A DNA stretch of 64,000 bases from Tetrahymena elliotti 4EA (lineage: Eukaryota; Ciliophora; Oligohymenophorea; Hymenostomatida; Tetrahymenidae): positions 62,001-126,000 of the forward strand of contig JH720396.1 of the NCBI GenBank assembly GCA_000231825.2, written 5' to 3'. A model generated the notes under the pieces. That model was not told where the DNA came from and did no database searches. It was given only the letters and a program-made list of their open reading frames with translations. This document shows, piece after piece, positions 2,686-63,977 of this stretch. The number at the start of each line of letters is the position of its first letter. Position 1 is the stretch's first letter. The position numbers and the translations under genes are program-made.

Positions 2686-5600
2686 TCATCCCTTTATGGT
2701 CATTTCTTATTATAAAATTCTAATGTTTTTTAATTTGGTATCCATTATTTGTTGCTATCTAGATTCAAATTCATCACATATGTTTCTGTTCCATTTGCAT
2801 TTTCTCTCCCTAAAATGTTTAAGTAGACCAAAAAGTTTACGTAATTCCATATGTTATGAGTCTTAGTGGTATGGCGTATAAAGTTGAACCCATTCTTTTC
2901 GAACTCCCATTTCTAGATATCGCATATAAAGCATACGTTTTCTATATCAAATTCTGTTTGATGTTACTCATCTCTCAAATCTGCAAATGCATCAATGATA
3001 ATACCACTAATCACATTCAACATAATCTGAGAAATAATAATGAAGAAAGAGAAATCAAAGATGAAAGTTGTATAAAAATCATAGTTAGAATTAGTAAAAC
3101 TCATATTGTACCCAAAAGTACCAATACCATTATCTTCTCTTAGGCCATAGAGTACCAAAGAAATTAAACAATGATATGGAGTATCACAAAGTTATTCATC
3201 AATGTATTCTCCTTATGGTCCTAGTACATTCAGTTAAAATCTCTAACTAAAGCTTGTAAAACCAGTAAATGCGTACATGTTTAAAAGAATAAGGATTAGG
3301 AGGAAAATACCTAATTATTATTTAAATTTTTAAAAAATTGTTCGTTCAAATAAATTCCATTCATTTTATGAAATTGAATAATTTCTACTTAGTTTATGTT
3401 AACTACTCACTCACTCTCTTTTAAAATAAATATCAGTTAATCTATGCATTTTAATTCATCCTCAAATAATAAAATCAAAATAAAATTTTAATGGCAAAGT
3501 ATCTACCAAAAATGTATGTTAATATTCATCAATTAACAATCAATAATTTTTTTGAGTTGAAATTATTATAGAGAGAGGGAAAGTTTTAAAACTAAATAGC
3601 TAAAAAGAAATTTTATTACCTAAGAATTTTCTCCAACGCATTTTAAGGGCTTGTAGTACAGAGTTCATAGTTTTATTGACAAAGACAAAACAGAGACAAA
3701 GCAAATAGAAGAAGAACTCACTAATATAGATACCACATAGTGAAAGTATCAAAATTAAAAAGAATGGTAATAAATCCTTTCTTTTAAAAATAGAATATAT
3801 CAATAAGATCTTTTATATTTGCATCCTCATCTTATTCTCTTGACTATCCTATTTCTTATACTCTTCATTGTTAGCAATATTTTACTATGTTTGCAATTCA
3901 TTTAATTCTATTCTATAATAAATCTTAAATCTTAGCAGAAGATAAAATGAAAGAATTATCATAGATAGATAAACATTTAATTTTCCTAAAACTTTTACAA
4001 AAGTAGTGTGTTCTCTAACAACCTTTAAATATTATTTTAAATAGTTTAGTTCAAATTTTTATTTTTCTCGAAAAGATTTTAAAGTTCATTTTTTTAAATA
4101 TTAGCTAATAATTCTTAAAAGAAAATAAATTTTTTTGGATGAATCATATTTCTTCAAAAGAGATTTCGAATTTATAATTTCTTAATCTGAAAAATAATAA
4201 ATTAGAGCAATTAAATTATTATTGATTGATTTAAATTTACTTAACCATCTTCTATCTTGTATGAGAAACTGACAAAGATAGTGATTATGAAGTTGATTAC
4301 AGCAAGTAATATGACAGGCTTTGAGTGATCAGAATCAAACATGACAATTTACAACAATTTTGGCCAAAGAGGAGAATAATTTTTAAAGAATTTTCTATTT
4401 TCTTCCATTTCAATCATAAAGTGTGGGACAGCATCAATCATAGAGCCCAATTTGGAACCGTTATTAGATCTATCAACGTTTTCTAAGAACTAGTTTTATG
4501 TTTCACTAGGAAAACAATATTGAGATAATTTTAATAAATTCAAAAATATTACTATGACAAAAAGAAACATTAAGGTGGTATAATATATTAGTATTCTATT
4601 AAATTTCCCTACGTATCAACTAGTTCTATTGTTTAAACTATACCATCTAGAAATTTAAAACCAGTTGTGATTATTCCATTATAAGTTGTTCTGTAATTAG
4701 CTGGATCCGATATTCTTTTTTTATAGAAATTAACATAGGTAGCGACTTCCTAAGATATTTTTTTATAGTTATTTAAGATCTTTGAAATAGAAACTAAGAT
4801 TTTAATTGGTTAATTTTTTTCTTCCAAAAGGACAGATTAATGAAGATTTTCTCCAAGCTAATACTTGTAAATTTGAATTAGCTTTGCTGGTATAAAGTAT
4901 AAATTTGTGTTATCTTAACTGCTTTCGTTTATTTCAATATTTAAGAAAGTCTATTTTAAAAATTTTAATCAATAAATACAGTATTTATTGGATAGTATTT
5001 TACCTTCACTATGTGTTTAAAAGTTTATAAAAAAGTTTCTTCTAAAACTTTGTAATTGACTACAGAGCTAATATTTTCTAAAATATAGTTATTTTATCCT
5101 TCCAACAAGGATATAACAAGTTCAAGTACATAAACTCTAACAGTTTATAGTGTTAGCATATCACTAGTTGCCTTTTTAATCAAAATTTTAGTAATAATCT
5201 ACCACATTTTCTACTAATTAAAGAGCTGAATAGTGAGATTTTAGTTTTCTAGACATGGACCCAAATGCATTTCAGCTAAACCAATCATTGAATATGTAAA
5301 AAGCTTTATAAATGTCTATGATATACCACCTTCCATTAACTTTAAATATGATTAAAATTACTCTCATTGCAAAAAAATAAAAAATTTTACTAATTATGCT
5401 TATGCTTTCTTGCTAGTTAAAGTATCAATTTACCATGATTTGAAAAGGAGTTCGCATAAACCTATCATTCTTCTAAGAATACCTTACTCACCAATAATTT
5501 TTTATAAATATTCATGTTATTCTTCAGCAAGATATCTAAACAACTGAATAAATTCTACACTTAGATCACCAATCTTATTTAATATTTTAATAATTAAAAT

Positions 5601-8600
5601 TAAAACATTATTTCATTTTTATACCCATCTTAATGTGTTATCTTCAAAGTTTGTTTCATAGTTCTTAACCAAAGAAAAGAGCTAAGGCATATACTAAGCA
5701 ACTAATATAAATAAAACAAATTTATTTGTTGGTTTATATAAGGGAATTAATATTTTACCAATTTGTAATATAGAAACAAATAGCTCTTTGTTTGTAGGAG
5801 ATTCTTCTAAATATTCTCTTATGATGCCTTAGAAAAGGGTTGTGTCTAAAATGAGAAGACGATTCATTAATTTAACATGATTACACATGGAATTATAATT
5901 ATAATATTCACAAGATTGCAATTTGCTATAAGGATAGAGAGCACTTGGTTGTTTAATTTAGTTAAGAATATAATTCATAAATATGCTGCTTATTTTGCAA
6001 AAATTTTTGAGCTTAATTTGTTAGTAGTGAATCTAATATAAAGGAGATTTTTCTATTAAAATAGACTCATTTTATTTATTACCTAAAGTATCAATGAAAT
6101 TTATTATTTCCTTATAAAAATCATAATACTAAGGATTAATGTTCTTTGGTTCAACAATACCAGAAGAACGACTCATGTGCTTTCTAATAAATATATTAAA
6201 CATAAATTAACACATCATTATTTATTCACAAAAGAATGTTTTACTTATAAATCTTGATGTATCTCTTGTTAACTAATCTTTGCTCATACTTTTCAAAGAT
6301 GTCTTCAATTTTACCAAAAAGTTTACCCTCTGGTGTGGAAGATTTCTATTCTAAAAGAGCATTTGCTTGTTGCTGCTTAAGATTACGAGGTATTTATGAT
6401 TTAAGCATAACATGAGTAAACAAGTCTCTTATAAATATAAATTCTATGACCAATTCCTAAATTTTCATAAGTTCTCTACCATTAAGAAAATTTGCATCTC
6501 CTACTAACTTAGTAAAGCTGATTATATTTTCAAAAGGCAAGAATATTGCATACAAACCAAAATCCTTCAAAAAGTTCAATTACTTTTTCAGCATTTTTTA
6601 GAAAATTTTAACTTTTGAAACAAATCCTTAAATATTAGCTCTTAGTAGCTTTTCTAGATTTTAAATATTGGATTTAAGAGCAAAGATTTTGGTAGACAAC
6701 TTATCTACTTTTAAGTCACTACCAATAAGCAAATTCATTTCAAAGTTTCTCTTTTCAAAGCTTTGGATGACATTTTTAGCTTTCAAGAAGTGAAGATTAA
6801 AAAATCTAAACATTTCAGTTTGAATATCAATAAAATACTCAGACTATTTTTAAAATTTAAAAATAATTTTTTTAATAAACAAAACTAAAATAAATTACAT
6901 CTTGATAAAGCTCTTCTAAGAAAGCATAAGTTTGTTCACTTAAATGAGAATTACTCATATCAGGGAATATTTCAGTTAATATGTCAATATTTTTTTAAGG
7001 GAAGATTGTTTCATTATTTTCCATAAGAATATTAAGCAACTTCATACATATAGCAAATAACTGGATTGTTTTAAAAGCTATGTGGTCTTCTTAAGTTTGT
7101 GAAATTTCTTTTAATTTAGTAAAGTTATTAGAATCATTAGCTGTAATAACAAAGCAGTCATCCTCTAATATTGTGTTAAATTTATTATTTACGTGTTTCA
7201 GACTTTCACTAATACCCTTTTTAATATATTTATGTGGCTTCATAGTCTTTTTAGAAAATAATCCCCCTTCGAACATCTCATCTACAATCATCAAGATATT
7301 TCTAGATATACCTATTATAATTAAGAAATTTTTTTAGTTAATAAATACAATAGATTTAAAAATTTACTCTAAAAGCAGTGATAAAGTACAGAACTTTTTT
7401 CATAATAATCTTCTTTCTTTTTAGTTCTTGAATCATATTTTTCAATTATTATTAAAATTGATTCATACATATTTATTCTAAATCTAAGAAGATTTTAATA
7501 AAGGAAAGAGGAGAGTTCAGTAACATCATAGTATTTGGTATCCACATGGTCAAGTACATGTTCAAAATGATCAAATATAAGAAGAGGTTAAGGGAATGTT
7601 TCTTTTTCTTTCAAAGAAGTGAGAAGATCATGATAAAATGTGCTAAACTCTAAATAAGAATCAGTTTAATCAATTAGCTTTTGTATAATTTCAAGGTTAT
7701 TCTTTTGCATTAATGCAGCCATATTGTCAATATTTTCATACCCATAAACTTTCAAGATATCCAAACATTTATTCAAAACAGCAAAAGGCTGCACATAATT
7801 AGGTGAAGAGTTCCTAAACATGTGAATATTTGTCTTACCACTTGATTTTGGGTGAATGAAAAAGTAATACTTTTTAAATTAAAAATATTTATTTCTTGGG
7901 TGAAAAAAGATAAAATATTTACTTAAAATAATCTTATAATAGATATATCAATTCCAGATCTTACGATTTTAGCTTAAAACTCTTTCAATTTCAAAGGGTA
8001 GTTTTTCTTATCTGATTTAGCTGAGCTCACAGAAGTCTTTAGAGTTTTGTTATTAATCAGTACAAGGAAAAATTCATATTCATCTGTGCTGATTATTTAA
8101 TTTAAGATATCAAATAATTCATTCTTCAAATCTTCAATAACCTCAGGAGGAGAAAAAGAATCTGTTAACTTTTTACCTTTGTAGCATTAAAATTTATTTA
8201 TTTATTTAAATCAAGAAATAAAATGAAAGAATAGTTTACCTAAGACATATTTATCAATTAATTTATCTAAATTTTTTCTAGGTTCTTTTAAAACATTTTT
8301 CTTTTAAAATAGATCCTTGAGGATAATGTATGAATTATAATTTTCTTCTGTGCATCTTCTAATACCTTCGATATACAGAGTAGAAGAAACGCATTATTCA
8401 CGCATAAGCTTTTGAATATTAGATTGAATTTTTTAAAATCCTTAAGGAGTTGAATCTAAGAACTTTTTATTCATTTAAATGTTCAATATTGTCCCAAATA
8501 ATATTTTATATATATTCATATTATTTATGTCATCACCTTCATATAAAAAGTAGAATTTCTTTTTTTCTACAGCATCATCTGGTAAATTCATATCTTTTTA

Positions 8601-10672
8601 TAATTCAAATGAGAAATTTATGTAATTTTATAAAATAATAGTTATCAATTACCATCTGCTATCTTTTGTCCTTCAGAGTTTTTTGAAATTTTTTCTTAAA
8701 ACGTTCTCTTAATCAACCCTTAATTGACAAGCTCTGTTTCAAATTATAAATCTTTTTAGTGGAAAAAGCAAAGCACTAAAATATCTGAAAGAAGAACCAA
8801 AGATTTTTCACTTATGATTTCACTGGCTTCTTCAGTTGTAAACTTTTAGAGCTCAACATTTAAAGTATTTAAGAGTTTCTTCAAAAAAGCAGGTTCTCTA
8901 CTTCCCTTTATAAAATGTTTAATACAACAATTAAAAGGATGATGAAATATAATTAATTTACTGATATCAGTCTACATTTAAGAATAGCTTTGATTATTTT
9001 TAGAGAGAAGTTAAGTAATTTGTTTTATATATTTATTGAAAAGTCGATATCGGATATTAAATCAATATATTACTTGATTTCTTTTGAAATATTTTAATAA
9101 TTTAAGACTATATAACCCTTTTGATTGTAATGTTAAGAAAAATCCCTTATTCCCATTCTCTAAAAAGGTGAATAATTTTCAATAGTTTTAGTTTCAATTT
9201 TCCTTAATTGAGAAATATCATCCTTTATCAACAATATATATATTTGCATAAGAAACTCTACAATCTTTTCATACCAATTCATTGAATAAGAATCAATAAC
9301 CTAAATTGTATTAGGCATATTCATAATAATGTTATGAATGTACTCTGTTGTTGTGATATTTAGGAATTTACTGTTAAGCTTTAAGAAACGCTTCTTTGTG
9401 TTATTATGTAAATTAACTAATTGCAAATTATCGTGGATAAATACATAATCCAAGAAAGAATTATCTTCTGCTAATTAAGCTATCTGATTTTCGCTTCCCA
9501 TTTTAGAAAATTTAGTTCTCATTAAGCTCATGTGAGCCTCAAATTTTTAAAATAAACCCATGTAAATAGCTTCATTCTCAAACAAGAAGTTAAAGAGGGG
9601 ATTAATAATACAATCTATTTTTAATTTAAAGAATTAAATTGAAATTTACTCAATTAAAATCAAATTATTATTGGCAATTTTAACATGATTTGGAGTGTTT
9701 ATTTAATGAAAGAAATTAGATGCTTTTTCAGTATTTTATTGAATGAAAAATTAAAATAATTTTTAAAATTAATGAACTTAAGTTTATTTATTTAAGTAAA
9801 ATAAAAGTTAAGCTCATTTATTTCTTTTTATTTAGAGACTTTGAAGTAAAATTCTAATTAATTAAAAGACATTTACACTTCATTTTCAAAATCTTTTTTA
9901 TTTAAAATACCATTTTATGGATTTAAAGATTTAAAAATATTATTTTTATTTTACCATCCATTCTGTTTTGGGTTATAATTTATTTGTATCTAGTGATAAA
10001 TGAACGCATTCTTGAAACTCTATGATGAGTGCAGTCATCACACTCACATTTCTAATTCTTGTTTGTTAAGACATACTCTTACAGATTATCTGTAGTAGGA
10101 ATTCTAGTTACAATTTATTTCATCTTTTTCATTTATTTTCCTTTCATAAATAATGCACTGGTATTCAGATTACTTGATGAATAGAGTTAATCTTAGTTGT
10201 TGTTTAAAAATATACTTTTGGATTCTAATCCTCTTAATTCTGCTCTATCATGTACTTCAAAATGGGCTCTATGTTTAGAATCATAAGCACAATAAAAACA
10301 AAGGGAAATGTTGCATCTAGGGCACATATAGAATTTCTTTCTAAAATTTGTATCTATATGATATAAGAAGCAATCTTTTACAATCAGAAGTTCTCTTTAA
10401 CGGAATTTATGACCAAGCATTGCGCAATCACAAAAAAAACGCGACTTTCTGAAATATTTTATATTATGACCTTCATGACAATATCCTATACAATATTTAC
10501 ATACACCATATCTTTCACTTGGAAAACAATCTAAGCATATATATTAATCCTACAAAATACTCTTCTTTCCTGTTTGCAAGAAAGAGCAAGCATGCTCTTT
10601 TTCTACAAGATTCTAAGCTTCAATGTGATATGTATAATGGTTTTCTAATTCAAACAATAACTTTTTATTCAT
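2686..10672 (-). CDS. UBR-box protein fused to an IP3-receptor/ryanodine-receptor-type Ca2+ channel
   Basis: Large multi-exon channel gene. N-terminus (10672-9955): after the first ATG comes a UBR box, residues about 29-98. Its zinc ligands are visible in CLDCFP, CKYC, CHEGH and FFCDC. A second Cys/His cluster (CPRC..CFYC..H..H) and ECDDCTHH follow. The exon ends ATG-GAT-G and joins in phase across intron 9954-9777 to a long helical region. RIH-associated homology is seen near 5030-5330 (GPCLENQ). Transmembrane segments lie near 4300-3000. The pore (about 3230-3090) reads CDTPYHC...GLREDNGIG, the position of the IP3R filter GLR.GGGVGD. S6 continues into IIIDAFADLRDE. The tail keeps the IP3R CxxC...H...H linker (CFICD, then RHTTKTH and NIWNY). 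The stop is TGA 2688-2686. Established: IP3R/RyR channels release stored Ca2+. The N-terminal beta-trefoil ligand-binding domains were not found, so the gating ligand is unknown. Channel identity is very secure; the fusion is well supported but untested by transcript. Confidence 0.8.
10380..10590 (-). other. UBR box (N-recognin zinc finger) coding segment
   Basis: Coding sequence of the UBR box inside the first exon of the channel gene. Spacing and ligands (C, CxxC, CxxC, CHxxH, FCDC) follow the N-degron-binding UBR fold of ubiquitin ligases. The usual CDCG is CDCA here. Confidence 0.85.
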
Positions 10673-19005: not shown

Positions 19006-20790
19006 TCATTATTGAATCTCTTCAATAGGTTCTGGAAGTTTGAAATTTAGTTTTTCTGGATCAGTAAAATCTTCAAGGTCTATTAATTCATTTTCTTCAG
19101 TGCACTTCTCAGTACAGGTGTGATTTATGAAAAACTTGAAGATTCCTAAATATCCCTAATTCTACAAATTAGGAAGACTTTTTACATCTAATGAGTAAAC
19201 TAGGGGTTTGAATATTTCGTTTTTATTTGGTGGATGAGAGTAGTTTGCAACCATATAATGGCCAAAAGTTCTTTAATATGATTAATGCCCAATCATTTAT
19301 TTATGTAATCCAATAGCATCAAAAGTGATTTCTTAAAAGCTAGCATTCTTCTTATAATTACTTAGGTCTTTCTGGAAAGGCTAACTTGAAAAGAAAATCT
19401 TTTAATTTTCAATTTCTACTTCATAAATACAGAAATCAACTATTTTCTCTTTTTCGAATATTTATTAAGCTATGATGATATCCTTATTTAGATTGATGTA
19501 ATATTCTAAGTCATTTTTCTCACTTCTTTTTATTTTCATAGGTATCTTACCAACTCTTTATTAGCCATTTTCTGCCAATTTGAAAACATAATTAGTATTA
19601 CCTTATGCAAATGGATGATTATCAACAGTAAGTTTAACCTCTTTATTAGTTTGGGAAATTATTAATGGCTAATCCCATCTTACGACATTTAGATACTCTT
19701 CATCTTTTTTGATGTTAAAATCATATCTGATAGCTTTAATTGAATCAGAAGTTAAATTATCTTTGATCACAAGGCTCTTTATTTTATCTTTGATTCCTTA
19801 AATACTAAATAGACTATGTTTTTCTTTTTCTTTATCTTAAACTTAAAATTCCTTTACTTCTACCTCTTCGTCTACTGCTTCAGCTCCTCTTTCTCTCAAA
19901 GATTTATTAGCATTCATTATTTCATCATACTTTTACTTAAACTCATAATTGCTTCTGTTGAATTAAGTATTACTTAGCATATTTTAGACTACTTAATAGT
20001 ACAACTTACTGGTATCTATTTGTTAAACTCCTTCTTCTTCTTAATTCTTAATGAGTGTTTCCAAAGCTGTTTTTACAATAAATTTTCCAAAATCTTTTAC
20101 CGAGCTTCCTAATTCACCTTATTGGATTTCAACTCCAGTATGCTTTTTGTATTCCAATGAAAGCTTACCCATCATTTTATCAGTATAAGAATTTATACGA
20201 GCAGAGTATAGCTTGATCTTCTTTTAAGCAAAGATTTTCATAAAGTGCTCTAAATCTTCCCCACTTGGATCCCCATTAGGATAACTATCTCCACTTCCAC
20301 AATCATTATAGTCCTTGCCATGTCCAGGTGCGTCTGCAATAAAAACTGCATATCTAGCTCCACTAGCCCAATCTTATTCTAAAGCATTCTTAAATCCTCC
20401 AAAAACATCTTCAGGTAAATCGCCTCCGCCAGCAGCACTTACACCAGAAACAAATTTTTTAAATTAACGCCAATTAGTTGAGAAAGGGGATATTGAAAAC
20501 CTTATTTTTCCATCCTAGATATCTCTATATCCACAAAAGCAGAGACGGATACAACTAGTTTTGAATTATTGTTTTATTTATTTAACAATAGCAAAGATTT
20601 CATTTTTGACAGCAGTGATCCAGCTTCCCATAGATCCTGTACAGTCAACAATAAACATCAAATCTAACTCTGATTTAGGTAACATAGAATACATGTATGA
20701 ATTGTATGTTTACACATCACTAGCTAAGCCTGAGAGTGTTTTTTGATAAATACTATTTGTTAATTTTTATTCTTCAAATAGAGATTTCAT
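19006..20790 (-). CDS. vWA domain protein with degenerate alpha-kinase domain (VwkA-like)
   Basis: Single-exon gene of 594 codons plus TGA. Residues about 40-230 form a von Willebrand A domain with an intact metal site: DCTGSMGSW, then GGGDLPEDVFGG and VFIADAPGHG. The C-terminal third matches the alpha-kinase fold, seen in Dictyostelium as vWA-alpha-kinase (VwkA). Matching parts are a PFQKDLSNYKKN segment, a FGHYMVAN segment and the Gly-rich/zinc tail GYLGIFKFFINHTCTEKC. Active alpha-kinases carry a DxQG motif before the Gly-rich loop. Here that position reads LVYSLDVKSLPN, so the catalytic Asp/Gln pair seems lost or moved. It may be an inactive or divergent kinase, or a scaffold. The start is the first ATG after a run of A and T and gives MKSLFEEQKL. 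Fold assignment is good for vWA and moderate for the kinase. Confidence 0.82.
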
Positions 20791-41992: not shown

Positions 41993-43138
41993 ATGGCAGC
42001 TCTAGATAAAATCATTTAACAAGTCCTAGATTCAATAGCAGAATAATAGGGTGATAGCAGAGATGATGAAGTTTATGTTATTGAAATTATGTCCTTACGT
42101 TTTGAGAAGTTTGATAATAGAATCAAATCTAAGCTTGAAAGATTCACATCCCTTCAAATGCTGACAATAAATGATTGCCTTATTTCTGATTTAACTAGTT
42201 TCCCTCATCTCCCTTCTTTGATTAGATTAGATTTGGTATTTAATAAAATTACTGGTGACTAGCTTGGATATTTAAGAGGATCCAGACATTTATAAACTTT
42301 AATGATTGGAGCTAATTAAATTGAAGATATTGAAGATTTGAAGAGACTTGGCCAAATGAGAGAATTAATTTAGCTTGATTTATTGAACAATCCAGTTGTT
42401 AACACAGATAATTATAGGAAAATTATTTTTAATCTGTTCCCTTCTTTGGTTATTCTAGATACATTAGATAAAAATGGAATTGACTAAGAAAAAGCTGCTC
42501 TAGATATCTCTGCTGCAAGAGTTCCTGATAACTTATTTGACAAATCTAAGCCTGCAAGCAGTACTTCAAAATAAGCTGTTAAAAGCTCTAAAGTATAAGC
42601 AATTAATATGTTCAGCTCTACATAAAAGGTAGCTGCAGTAAAATAAAATCCTAAACCTGTAGCTGCAAAAGTTTCATCAACACAAGCTTAAAATGATAAA
42701 TCTGATAAAACTGTACCTACAGTAGTTATTAATAGAAAATTAGCTGTTAAAGTAAGAGCTCCCCCTGCTCAATCTGGAAAATCTGGAAAAGGAAAAATGG
42801 ATGCCTTTAAAAAATAATCAACTTCAGCAAAGAGCGGATTAGTTTTCCCATGTGGAAGAATCAGAAGATATTTGAAGTAAACTTGTAAATAATTTAGAAT
42901 TTCTTCTAGCAGTAATATTTACTTAGCAGGTGTCCTAGAATATTTAACAGCTGAAGTCTTAGAAACTGCTGGAAACATAGCTAAAAATAATAAATATAGT
43001 AGAATCAATCCTTTACATATAAGAGAAGCTTTTAGAAACGATGCTGAGTTAAACTAATTTGTAAGTGGTACAATTATATCTGAAGGTGGTAGTACAAGTA
43101 CTAACTTTTTTATTCCTATAAATTAAAAATCTAAATGA
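41993..43138 (+). CDS. HTAY: Chimeric histone H2A variant with N-terminal LRR domain (H2A.Y)
   Basis: Intronless, 381 residues. Residues about 40-165 form an SDS22/ANP32-type LRR domain with cap ([55 protein letters not shown]). A Lys/Ser/Ala-rich linker follows. The last 105 residues are an H2A histone fold: [61 protein letters not shown]. Established knowledge: Tetrahymena has an essential chimeric H2A variant, H2A.Y, whose Sds22-like N-terminal part links PP1-type regulation to mitotic H3 S10 dephosphorylation. The architecture here matches. One acidic-patch position differs (NDAEL instead of the usual NDEEL), and the C-terminal tail is short (FFIPINQKSK). The symbol follows that variant and may be named differently in databases. 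Confidence 0.93.
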
Positions 43139-61517: not shown

Positions 61518-62666
61518 GATTGCCAAACAAACATTTTCAAAAATTAATTCAAGAATTTGTAAATGAAATCAAATTTTATTCTTCTTAAACTGAAAGATAA
61601 TTAATTTTCTCAATAAACTTTATCATTTTTCACAAAGAAAAAAAAAGTAAAATGCCTATTACTATCAATAGACAGATATCTAATAGATTTTTAAAATCTT
61701 TGTTCTATTTATTTAAATTAGTATCAACCCCTTTTTTCACTAGAATCAAACTTCCTCATCAATTATCAATCTATTCTAATCTAAATAAACTAAAGAACAA
61801 TCAAAAAAACTTTATCAAAATTTAGCAAAAATTTTTTAATGCAAAAATTAAACCAAATAAAGGATCAAACCCCCCTTTTTTATTGTTTTTAGTCAAATTA
61901 AAAAAGAAGTATTTATTTTATAATAATAATACTAAAAAATTGTTTGCTTTGATTCAAAATGAAAATAATCATTTGCAATTTATTTTGAAGAATATGTTTA
62001 ATCACTTAACTGAAATGAATTTTGAGTTTTTTATTTCTTTTTTTATTTTGTGATTAACAAATTTAAGTCTGTTATTGAATCCCCTATTTGATAATTCCAT
62101 AATAGTTTATCTAATGCCATTACAAGAAACAATTCCTAAGTCGATATTTTTTCTGTTTTAGAAATATTTTAGAAAGACTTAAATTATTTCATGTATGTAA
62201 TTGTTGCAATAAATTTTAAAATAATAAATGCTAGGTGAAATTTATTTTAAAAGAAATAAACAAAGACTACAAGTTAATATTCTTTTATTATTCCTAAACA
62301 GTTCTGAGATAATACACCAAAATTGTTTATTATTATTTAGAGTAAGGGAAAAGTGTTATTCCAAAAAATACAAATGAATCTTTGTCTCAATTTATAGTTT
62401 ATTTTTTATGAAAAGATAAAAATAATATCTATTGACAATAATTACTTTATTCATTTGATAAATATATGAAAGGATTTCGTGGACATGCAAGATCCTCATA
62501 TTTGTACTTTTTTATTTTTCTTAAAAAAAAGATTTATATGACTAGAAAGATCCAATTGTTTACGCAATTTTTATTAAGATAAAAAATATTTGGCAATTAC
62601 AAAACTTAGTACTATTGTAGTTAACAAAGTTAATTTTATAAATAAAAATAGGTGTGCTTAAAAAAA
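61518..62666. other. Divergent intergenic region
   Basis: About 1.15 kb of AT-rich DNA between the kinase-like gene (-) and the decarboxylase gene (+). No exon, repeat array or RNA gene is seen on either strand. Confidence 0.6.
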
Positions 62667-63977
62667 ATGGAACAAGATAAGATATAATAGACCAACGAGA
62701 TGAAGATTGGAGATTTTACAGTTAGTTAGCTAGTTTAAAAATATAGTACTCCATTATATGTTTACAATGCTTAAATCATTAAGGAAAAATGTTAATAATT
62801 ATTGAATGCATTAAAGTTATTACCTACTTAAACCAAGGCACTTTATGCTTGTAAGGCTAACACTAATATTGCTGTCATTAAGTTAATGAAGGAGTAAGGA
62901 ATCTAAGGAATCGATGCTGTTTCCCTCTAAGAAATCCAATTAGCAAAAAAAGCTGGATTTGATGGAAGAGATATTTAATTTACTGAGAATTTCATTGGTT
63001 AGAAAGAAATGGAGGATTCTTTAAGAGAAGGAAGCTTACTTTGCATAGGAGAATTAGATACTTTAGAAACATTAGGTAAGCGTCTTTAATCTAAGTAGCT
63101 TGTTTTGAAGGAAACTGAGAACGGAGAAAAACTAAAAGTAGCAGTACGTATTAATCCTGATGTAGGAGTTGGCGAATGTGAGCATACAATTACAGGAGGA
63201 CCTAAAAGCAAATTCGGTATCTACTGCAACTAAATTGAAGAAATTATTAAAATCTGCTAGAAATACCCAATTGAAATTGAGGGAATACATCAGCATATTG
63301 GATCAAACATGGTCTAAAAAGATATGGATAAATATGTTTAATCTATTAAAAAAATATTTGATGTAGCTCTTTAAATAAAGGGTCTTAAATTTATTAATGT
63401 AGGTGGAGGTATTGGTGTTCCTTATGTAGATGGTGTAAAACCTTTAAATCTCATTGAAGCTTATGAAAAAGTAGCTGAAGAATACAGACTCTTTAAAGAA
63501 AAATATGGTCATGATGTAGAAATCCGTGTCGAACCTGGTCGTTTCTTAGTTGCTGAAAGTGGTTTCCTTTTAACTACAGTAACTGCTATTAAGAAAAATT
63601 AATATAGCACATGGATAGGTACTGATACAGGTATGAACCACTTAATCCGTCCAGCTCTTTATGAATCTTATCACAAAATAGAAAATGCATCTAATTATGA
63701 ATCTGTTAAAAATGAAAATAATGAAAGACAATTAGTAAATGTATGTGGTAATATTTGTGAGAGTGCAGATGTTTTTGGTCAGAACAGAGAAATTAGAACA
63801 GTTAAAGATGATGACATATTAGCTATTTACAACGGAGGTGCATATGGATTCTGTATGGCTAGTAATTACAACTCTAGAAATAGACCAGCAGAAGTTCTCG
63901 TTGATGGATCTGTAGAAAAACTTATCAGAAGAAGAGAAACTTTAGAAGATTAACTTGCAACCTAAATCTTTGATTGA
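62667..63977 (+). CDS. lysA: Diaminopimelate decarboxylase (PLP fold-III)
   Basis: Intronless, 436 residues. Expected reaction: meso-diaminopimelate to L-lysine plus CO2, the last step of lysine synthesis, with PLP cofactor. Seen: the PLP-binding lysine in LYACKANTN (about K63), GIHQHIGSNM, the glycine loop NVGGGIGVPY, EPGRFLVAESG, GTDTGMNHLIRPALYESYH, and the subunit-crossing active-site cysteine in CGNICESADVFG. This set fits LysA rather than ornithine decarboxylase: the RPALYxxYH and ESADVFG motifs are LysA-type. Length equals that of bacterial enzymes. No targeting peptide is evident (MEQDKIQQTNEMKIGDF), suggesting the cytosol. The gene uses TAA/TAG as Gln, so it is a resident ciliate gene and not contamination. 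Substrate assignment is by motif; related decarboxylases cannot be fully excluded. Confidence 0.9.

Follow-up and report, generated by a model that had tools for sequence, protein, structure and literature searches.

A predicted Tetrahymena elliotti gene joining a UBR box to an IP3R/RyR-type channel domain

Introduction

Ca2+-release channels (CRCs) of the IP3R/RyR superfamily have been described in the ciliate Paramecium, and one of those treated in the main text of PMC3213138, CRC-VI-3, is of particular relevance here: it is a protein of 2021 aa with a truncated N-terminus, is conserved chiefly in its channel domain and is located on early endosomes. Its selectivity filter is not conserved, its transmembrane (TM) domain groups with CRC-IV/V, and the start of its cDNA falls in a formerly separate upstream gene model (PMC3213138). 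Among proteins with a UBR box, UBR4 holds the free amino group of its ligand by F1713 and D1715, according to the text of PMC10687169. Here we analyze a 64,000-nucleotide stretch of the T. elliotti 4EA genome (the window; C111:62001-126000) and describe a predicted gene on its minus strand (2700..10672) with a UBR box at the N-terminus and an IP3R/RyR-type pore at the C-terminus, an arrangement which the initial annotation of this stretch had proposed and which our model supports. Its product is most likely a Ca2+-activated intracellular channel carrying a cytosolic protein-binding UBR module.

Gene model

The gene was modeled with 16 exons encoding 2147 aa and a TGA stop at 2702-2700, based on our gene finder and on P0001, the T. 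utriculariae protein ABPG72_010894; TAA and TAG are read as Gln in the gene and in the window. The gene finder is small and crude; it was trained partly on the present gene in round 1, and for round 2 it was retrained on the models it had itself predicted at 23 other channel loci. Both rounds returned the identical 16-exon, 2147-aa model, in which all 15 introns start with GTA and end with AG.

Exon 1, the UBR exon (9955..10672; 718 nt, G+C content 0.288), encodes residues 1-239, is 97.5% identical to the corresponding part of the T. utriculariae protein and closes with the donor GTAAAATA. It is separated by intron 1 (9615..9954, 340 nt) from exon 2 (8962..9614), the first channel exon, which it joins in phase as initially annotated. 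The second exon had been taken to begin at 9776 (acceptor at 9777); however, codon scores, G+C content and the junction in T. utriculariae placed the acceptor at 9615 and the start of the exon at 9614. Per-codon scores were +0.24 at the end of the UBR exon, -0.14 (non-coding) in the UBR frame beyond the donor and -0.07 in the channel frame at 9774-9616, with a G+C content of 14.9% for 9776-9616. Exon 2 opens with 17 complete codons (9612-9562) that lie upstream of any in-frame ATG, the first being at 9561, and these scored +0.25, with +0.27 downstream of the ATG. The channel frame thus seems to open without an ATG, as had been claimed, and because it is coding-like upstream of any ATG, exon 2 would have to be spliced to upstream sequence. 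The nearest upstream coding sequence is the UBR exon, which provides an in-phase donor and no stop. Separate genes were indeed hard to build: when split points were tried in 6-nt steps between 9954 and 9480, the best two-gene parse was 9.5 nats worse than one gene and discarded coding-like codons. Long introns are not rare in the window, where 25 of 153 predicted introns were at least 200 nt and 12 at least 300 nt, a crude count over both strands that includes some spurious genes.

ABPG72_010894 was the closest relative of the gene in the protein search, which would put the genome near the clade of T. thermophila, T. malaccensis and T. utriculariae. It is 97.0% identical to our model over 2146 aa with zero gaps, and this gapless agreement implies that all splice junctions match; it represents the same gene, UBR domain included, with a C-terminus one residue shorter, and is deposited in NCBI as a hypothetical protein. 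Genes of T. utriculariae were predicted by BRAKER2 with RNA-seq and protein hints, according to the text of PMC12516953, and we infer that the ABPG72_010894 locus tag stems from that annotation. When the UBR part was searched alone, the T. utriculariae protein was the sole match, in a search which reaches only relatives sharing short exact words, and a scan of viral contigs for this protein gave no match. Taken as a predicted gene model, the union of UBR box and channel in one gene is strongly supported, short of proof.

UBR box and further Cys/His clusters

The UBR box (10421..10591; residues 28-84) was identified by Pfam and PDB searches and contains C29, C46, C49, C58, C61, C65, H66, H69, C81 and C83, so that eight Cys and two His of the set expected for three Zn sites are kept. 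Pfam zf-UBR scored 31.3 bits on the UBR exon (cut-off 25.2) and 26.7 on an early model of 2233 aa. The best PDB match was FBXO11 (9.5e-10), followed by UBR4 (2.9e-8) and BIG (5.5e-8), and by these matches the box is of the FBXO11/UBR4/BIG class. The additional Cys/His clusters of the initial annotation were also recovered. The second (10250..10324; residues 117-141) has the pattern CxxC, CxxC, HxxH, H and is conserved in T. utriculariae, and the third (10022..10048; residues 209-217) reads CxCxxCxHH; none of the 28 Cys and His within residues 1-239 differs between the two species. A reading of the second cluster as another UBR box was not supported (4.2 bits, with shuffled sequences reaching 9.0).

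Equivalences with UBR4 were counted on the alignment of the PDB match, using the numbering in the text of PMC10687169. By this count D1715 and F1713 of UBR4 are kept as D82 and F80, but the aromatic pocket residue F1671 is replaced by S38 and E1670 by K37, and no Cys matches the last Zn ligand, C1724, although H88 lies nearby. Pfam detected no RING, HECT, F-box or PHD domain in the T. utriculariae protein or in the early model of the present protein.

Channel domain

The C-terminal ~650 aa correspond to an IP3R/RyR channel, consisting of a putative end of RIH_assoc, six TM segments, the pore and a zinc linker. In PDB this domain matched ITPR3 (1.3e-32) and RyR1 (4e-25), and its best match outside Tetrahymena was the 2994-aa Paramecium protein P0003 (1.5e-44), probably CRC-IV-1 as judged from its length and GGGIGD filter. 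In profile comparisons, residues 1690-2142 aligned to a profile headed by P0003 (6.8e-43) and residues 1495-2143 to a wider profile (7.7e-49). The membrane segments (2982..4327; residues 1782-2054) were assigned by hydropathy and homology as S1 (1782-1806), S2 (1821-1840), S3/S4 (1892-1926), S5 (1940-1966) and S6 (2024-2054); S3 and S4 form a single hydropathy stretch, as described for several Paramecium CRCs in the main text of PMC3213138. The selectivity-filter region GLREDNGIGTFG (3111..3146; residues 2000-2011) was located by alignment to GLRNGGGVGD. The S6 motif GIIIDAFADLR is kept as in IP3R/RyR, and S6 is followed by the linker zinc finger CFIC...HTTKTHN (2853..2933; residues 2071-2097). 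The PDB matches and this aligned linker bear out the IP3R/RyR pore and IP3R-type CxxC/H..H C-terminal linker of the initial annotation, and by both features the predicted protein is a member of the IP3R/RyR superfamily.

The RIH-associated region fared less well. Its second half, which includes GPCLENQN, aligned with P0003 and an oomycete channel, but Pfam RIH_assoc was silent, and against PDB the stretch gave only ferritin-like matches with E values of 0.12 and above, which we regarded as noise. More generally, of the domain families named in the initial annotation, zf-UBR exceeded its cut-off but no channel domain did, Ion_trans reaching 23.0 bits on the T. utriculariae protein against a cut-off of 25.

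Two glutamates may belong to a Ca2+-activation site: E1433 (5523..5525) aligned to the first Glu of the site, IP3R1 E1978, and E1500 (5271..5273), which precedes GPCLENQN, to the second, IP3R1 E2042. The assignment used what we take to be the IP3R1 motif around these glutamates. Residues of the IP3R1 site are named in the text of PMC9663519, and the positions of E1978 and E2042 were derived from the spacing of the residues named there.

Middle region

Between the UBR exon and the channel lie residues 240-1490 (5301..9614; exons 2 to early 12), ~1250 aa in which no family was detected. Pfam found no family in this region; comparison with ciliate channel profiles by hhalign and a search of its own genome (90 Mb in 134 contigs) returned itself or noise only, and residues ~239-1407 gave only noise against PDB. 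Residues 240-300, which by eye could be taken for the IP3R RIH domain, scored -1.9 bits with a local profile (shuffles up to 6.6) and were rejected, although a diverged RIH could escape because this profile recovered only its four seeds and three other channels. No match to PF08709 or PF02815 was found in the gene, in agreement with the reported absence of the beta-trefoil IP3-binding region. However, this negative is weak alone, because these families matched upstream of only 10 of the 23 other channel loci (11 with one weak match). Our own trefoil profile, built from four proteins, found just those four and had no test value. Since residues 240-1490 showed no similarity to IP3R in these tests, a description of the protein as an IP3R in which only the trefoil has been swapped out is not supported.

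Family context in the genome

The 23 other channel loci were grouped from sequence matches, and 10-13 kb of each was examined. No UBR box was found in these stretches. At four of the loci (C38, C46, C53 and C14b) the trefoil matches fell outside the examined stretch, leaving the 5' ends uncovered, and the genome-wide zf-UBR search (E values to 0.001) showed nothing near them. Sixteen other zf-UBR places share no contig with a grouped channel or, where they do, are separated from it by more than 85 kb. This search scores the best candidates only, and C5:683048, which looks like UBR4 and was the one other match of the UBR exon in its own genome (1.1e-4), was not among them. Three of the zf-UBR matches, C7:919706, 939722 and 944622, are clustered.

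A tree built from 39 channel domains grouped the UBR channel and its T. utriculariae counterpart as a lone lineage with a stem length of 1.84. This lineage fell on the side of P0003-like and animal channels (87/85), with long branches making its exact position unsure. Neighboring pairs of IP3R/RyR-type channel loci were also observed on contigs C103 (~14.7 and 26.1 kb) and C98 (~47.6 and 61.5 kb), and the two C98 genes paired together in the tree.

Other genes in the window

A single-exon open reading frame of 381 aa (41993-43135, plus strand) encodes leucine-rich repeats (residues 58-157) followed by a histone fold (235-348; PF00125, 6e-11), an unusual pairing. Other genes include one with VWA and alpha-kinase domains (19009-20790, minus strand), which presumably resembles Dictyostelium VwkA, and an ornithine/diaminopimelate-type pyridoxal phosphate decarboxylase (62466-63974, plus strand).

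Proposed function and alternatives

We propose that the gene product is an IP3R/RyR-superfamily subunit of a cation channel for Ca2+ release, with a UBR-type, partner-binding N-terminus, and that this channel is not opened by IP3, a reading that we hold with about even confidence. By analogy with its relatives, the channel would be a tetramer in an internal membrane, with four UBR modules facing the cytosol. Opening would go through the Ca2+ site where RIH_assoc meets the linker, and IP3 would have no part in it. The partner bound by the UBR module, a protein or a peptide, would serve to position, assemble or tune the channel. Several observations weigh against this proposal. In the tests run here, residues 240-1490 lack detectable IP3R similarity, and the UBR box is without part of the UBR4 pocket and without its last Zn ligand; an AlphaFold2 model of the UBR exon alone failed (predicted local distance difference test score 30) and was left unused. 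The filter reads DNGIGT instead of the IP3R GGGVGD, and Ca2+ permeation is unsure because the filter Asp is not kept. By spacing, other ligands of the Ca2+ site also differ (Q2045 to Leu and N1981 to His). Finally, the gene model of the orthologue may carry the same prediction error as ours.

Among the alternatives, the one that survives best, though we consider it unlikely, is that the UBR box serves to link the channel with turnover through ubiquitin and has no role in gating, the protein acting as a membrane-anchored substrate receptor or as a partner of a UBR4-like ligase. The closest solved relatives of the box belong to E3 ligases and the genome holds the UBR4-like box at C5:683048, but the Pfam searches for RING, HECT, F-box and PHD argue against this role.

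A clearly smaller probability attaches to the UBR box as a ligand sensor, to which free N-termini (N-degrons or other peptides) would bind and so switch the channel open or shut, in the way that IP3 acts on IP3R. The N-terminal position of the box, the lack of a recognized trefoil and the retention of D82 and F80 are consistent with such a sensor, whereas S38, K37 and the missing last Zn ligand count against it, and the best match, FBXO11 (UBR6), is described as having a largely unknown N-recognin function (PMC8346999). Gating by N-degrons, as suggested in the initial annotation, is speculative because the aromatic pocket residue and the last Zn ligand of UBR4 are absent. Just as improbable in our view is its boldest form, a Ca2+-release channel gated directly by free N-termini at its UBR modules, possibly within an old ciliate subfamily that includes CRC-VI-3. 

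We also doubt, slightly more strongly, that the protein has lost its function as a Ca2+ channel, its pore-like domain now serving a structural purpose or another ionic one. The DNGIGT filter and the very long tree branch (1.84) point in that direction, but S6 and the linker zinc finger are well preserved and the two Tetrahymena species share 96.6% identity over exon 16. Because the filter GGG[V/I]GD is also incomplete in most Paramecium CRCs (main text of PMC3213138), its alteration is not decisive for superfamily membership. The least probable alternative is that prediction merged two adjacent genes, one for a small UBR protein and the other for a channel truncated at its N-terminus: the join spans a 340-nt AT-rich gap (~15% GC) and a two-gene parse exists at an only moderate score difference (a 316-aa UBR protein to 9660, the channel from 9561), but that parse leaves 98 nt between the UBR-protein stop and the channel ATG, requires an extra exon with a codon score of 0.0, throws away the 17 coding-like codons ahead of the ATG and departs from the T. 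utriculariae annotation, which has one gene with the identical junction.

If the UBR module of the proposed partner-binding channel controls the pore, this would add a new mode of opening to the IP3R family and connect the N-degron field directly with Ca2+ signaling; if free N-termini gate the channel, proteolysis would be linked to Ca2+ release. Even if the box only places or degrades the channel, the gene suggests that the N-terminal sensing end of the superfamily is exchangeable. Tetrahymena thermophila is a laboratory model that permits knock-out and tagging.

Comparison with known systems

No UBR-box channel besides the T. utriculariae copy was found in the open-licence literature or in short-exact-word protein searches, and the term UBR is absent from the main text of PMC3213138 on Paramecium CRCs. 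The UBR boxes of UBR4/BIG and FBXO11 share the Zn-ligand pattern of the present gene through FFCDC. They sit in E3-ligase components, whereas no E3 module was found here, and the present box has neither the last Zn ligand nor the aromatic pocket residue of UBR4. With IP3R/RyR the gene shares, besides a putative end of RIH_assoc, six TM segments, the pore, GIIIDAFADLR, the CxxC/HxxxxxH linker and the Ca2+-site glutamates. It differs from them in its N-terminal UBR module, in ~1250 aa without detected relatives, in its altered filter and in that no trefoil or RIH domain was recognized. P0003 has Pfam RIH_assoc and Ion_trans and no UBR box; its N-terminus reads by eye like an IP3R trefoil, although Pfam calls none. 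A further parallel is CRC-VI-3, which resembles the present gene in its length, its unconserved filter and a start within an upstream gene model, and which, likened by its description in PMC3213138, is a candidate orthologue.

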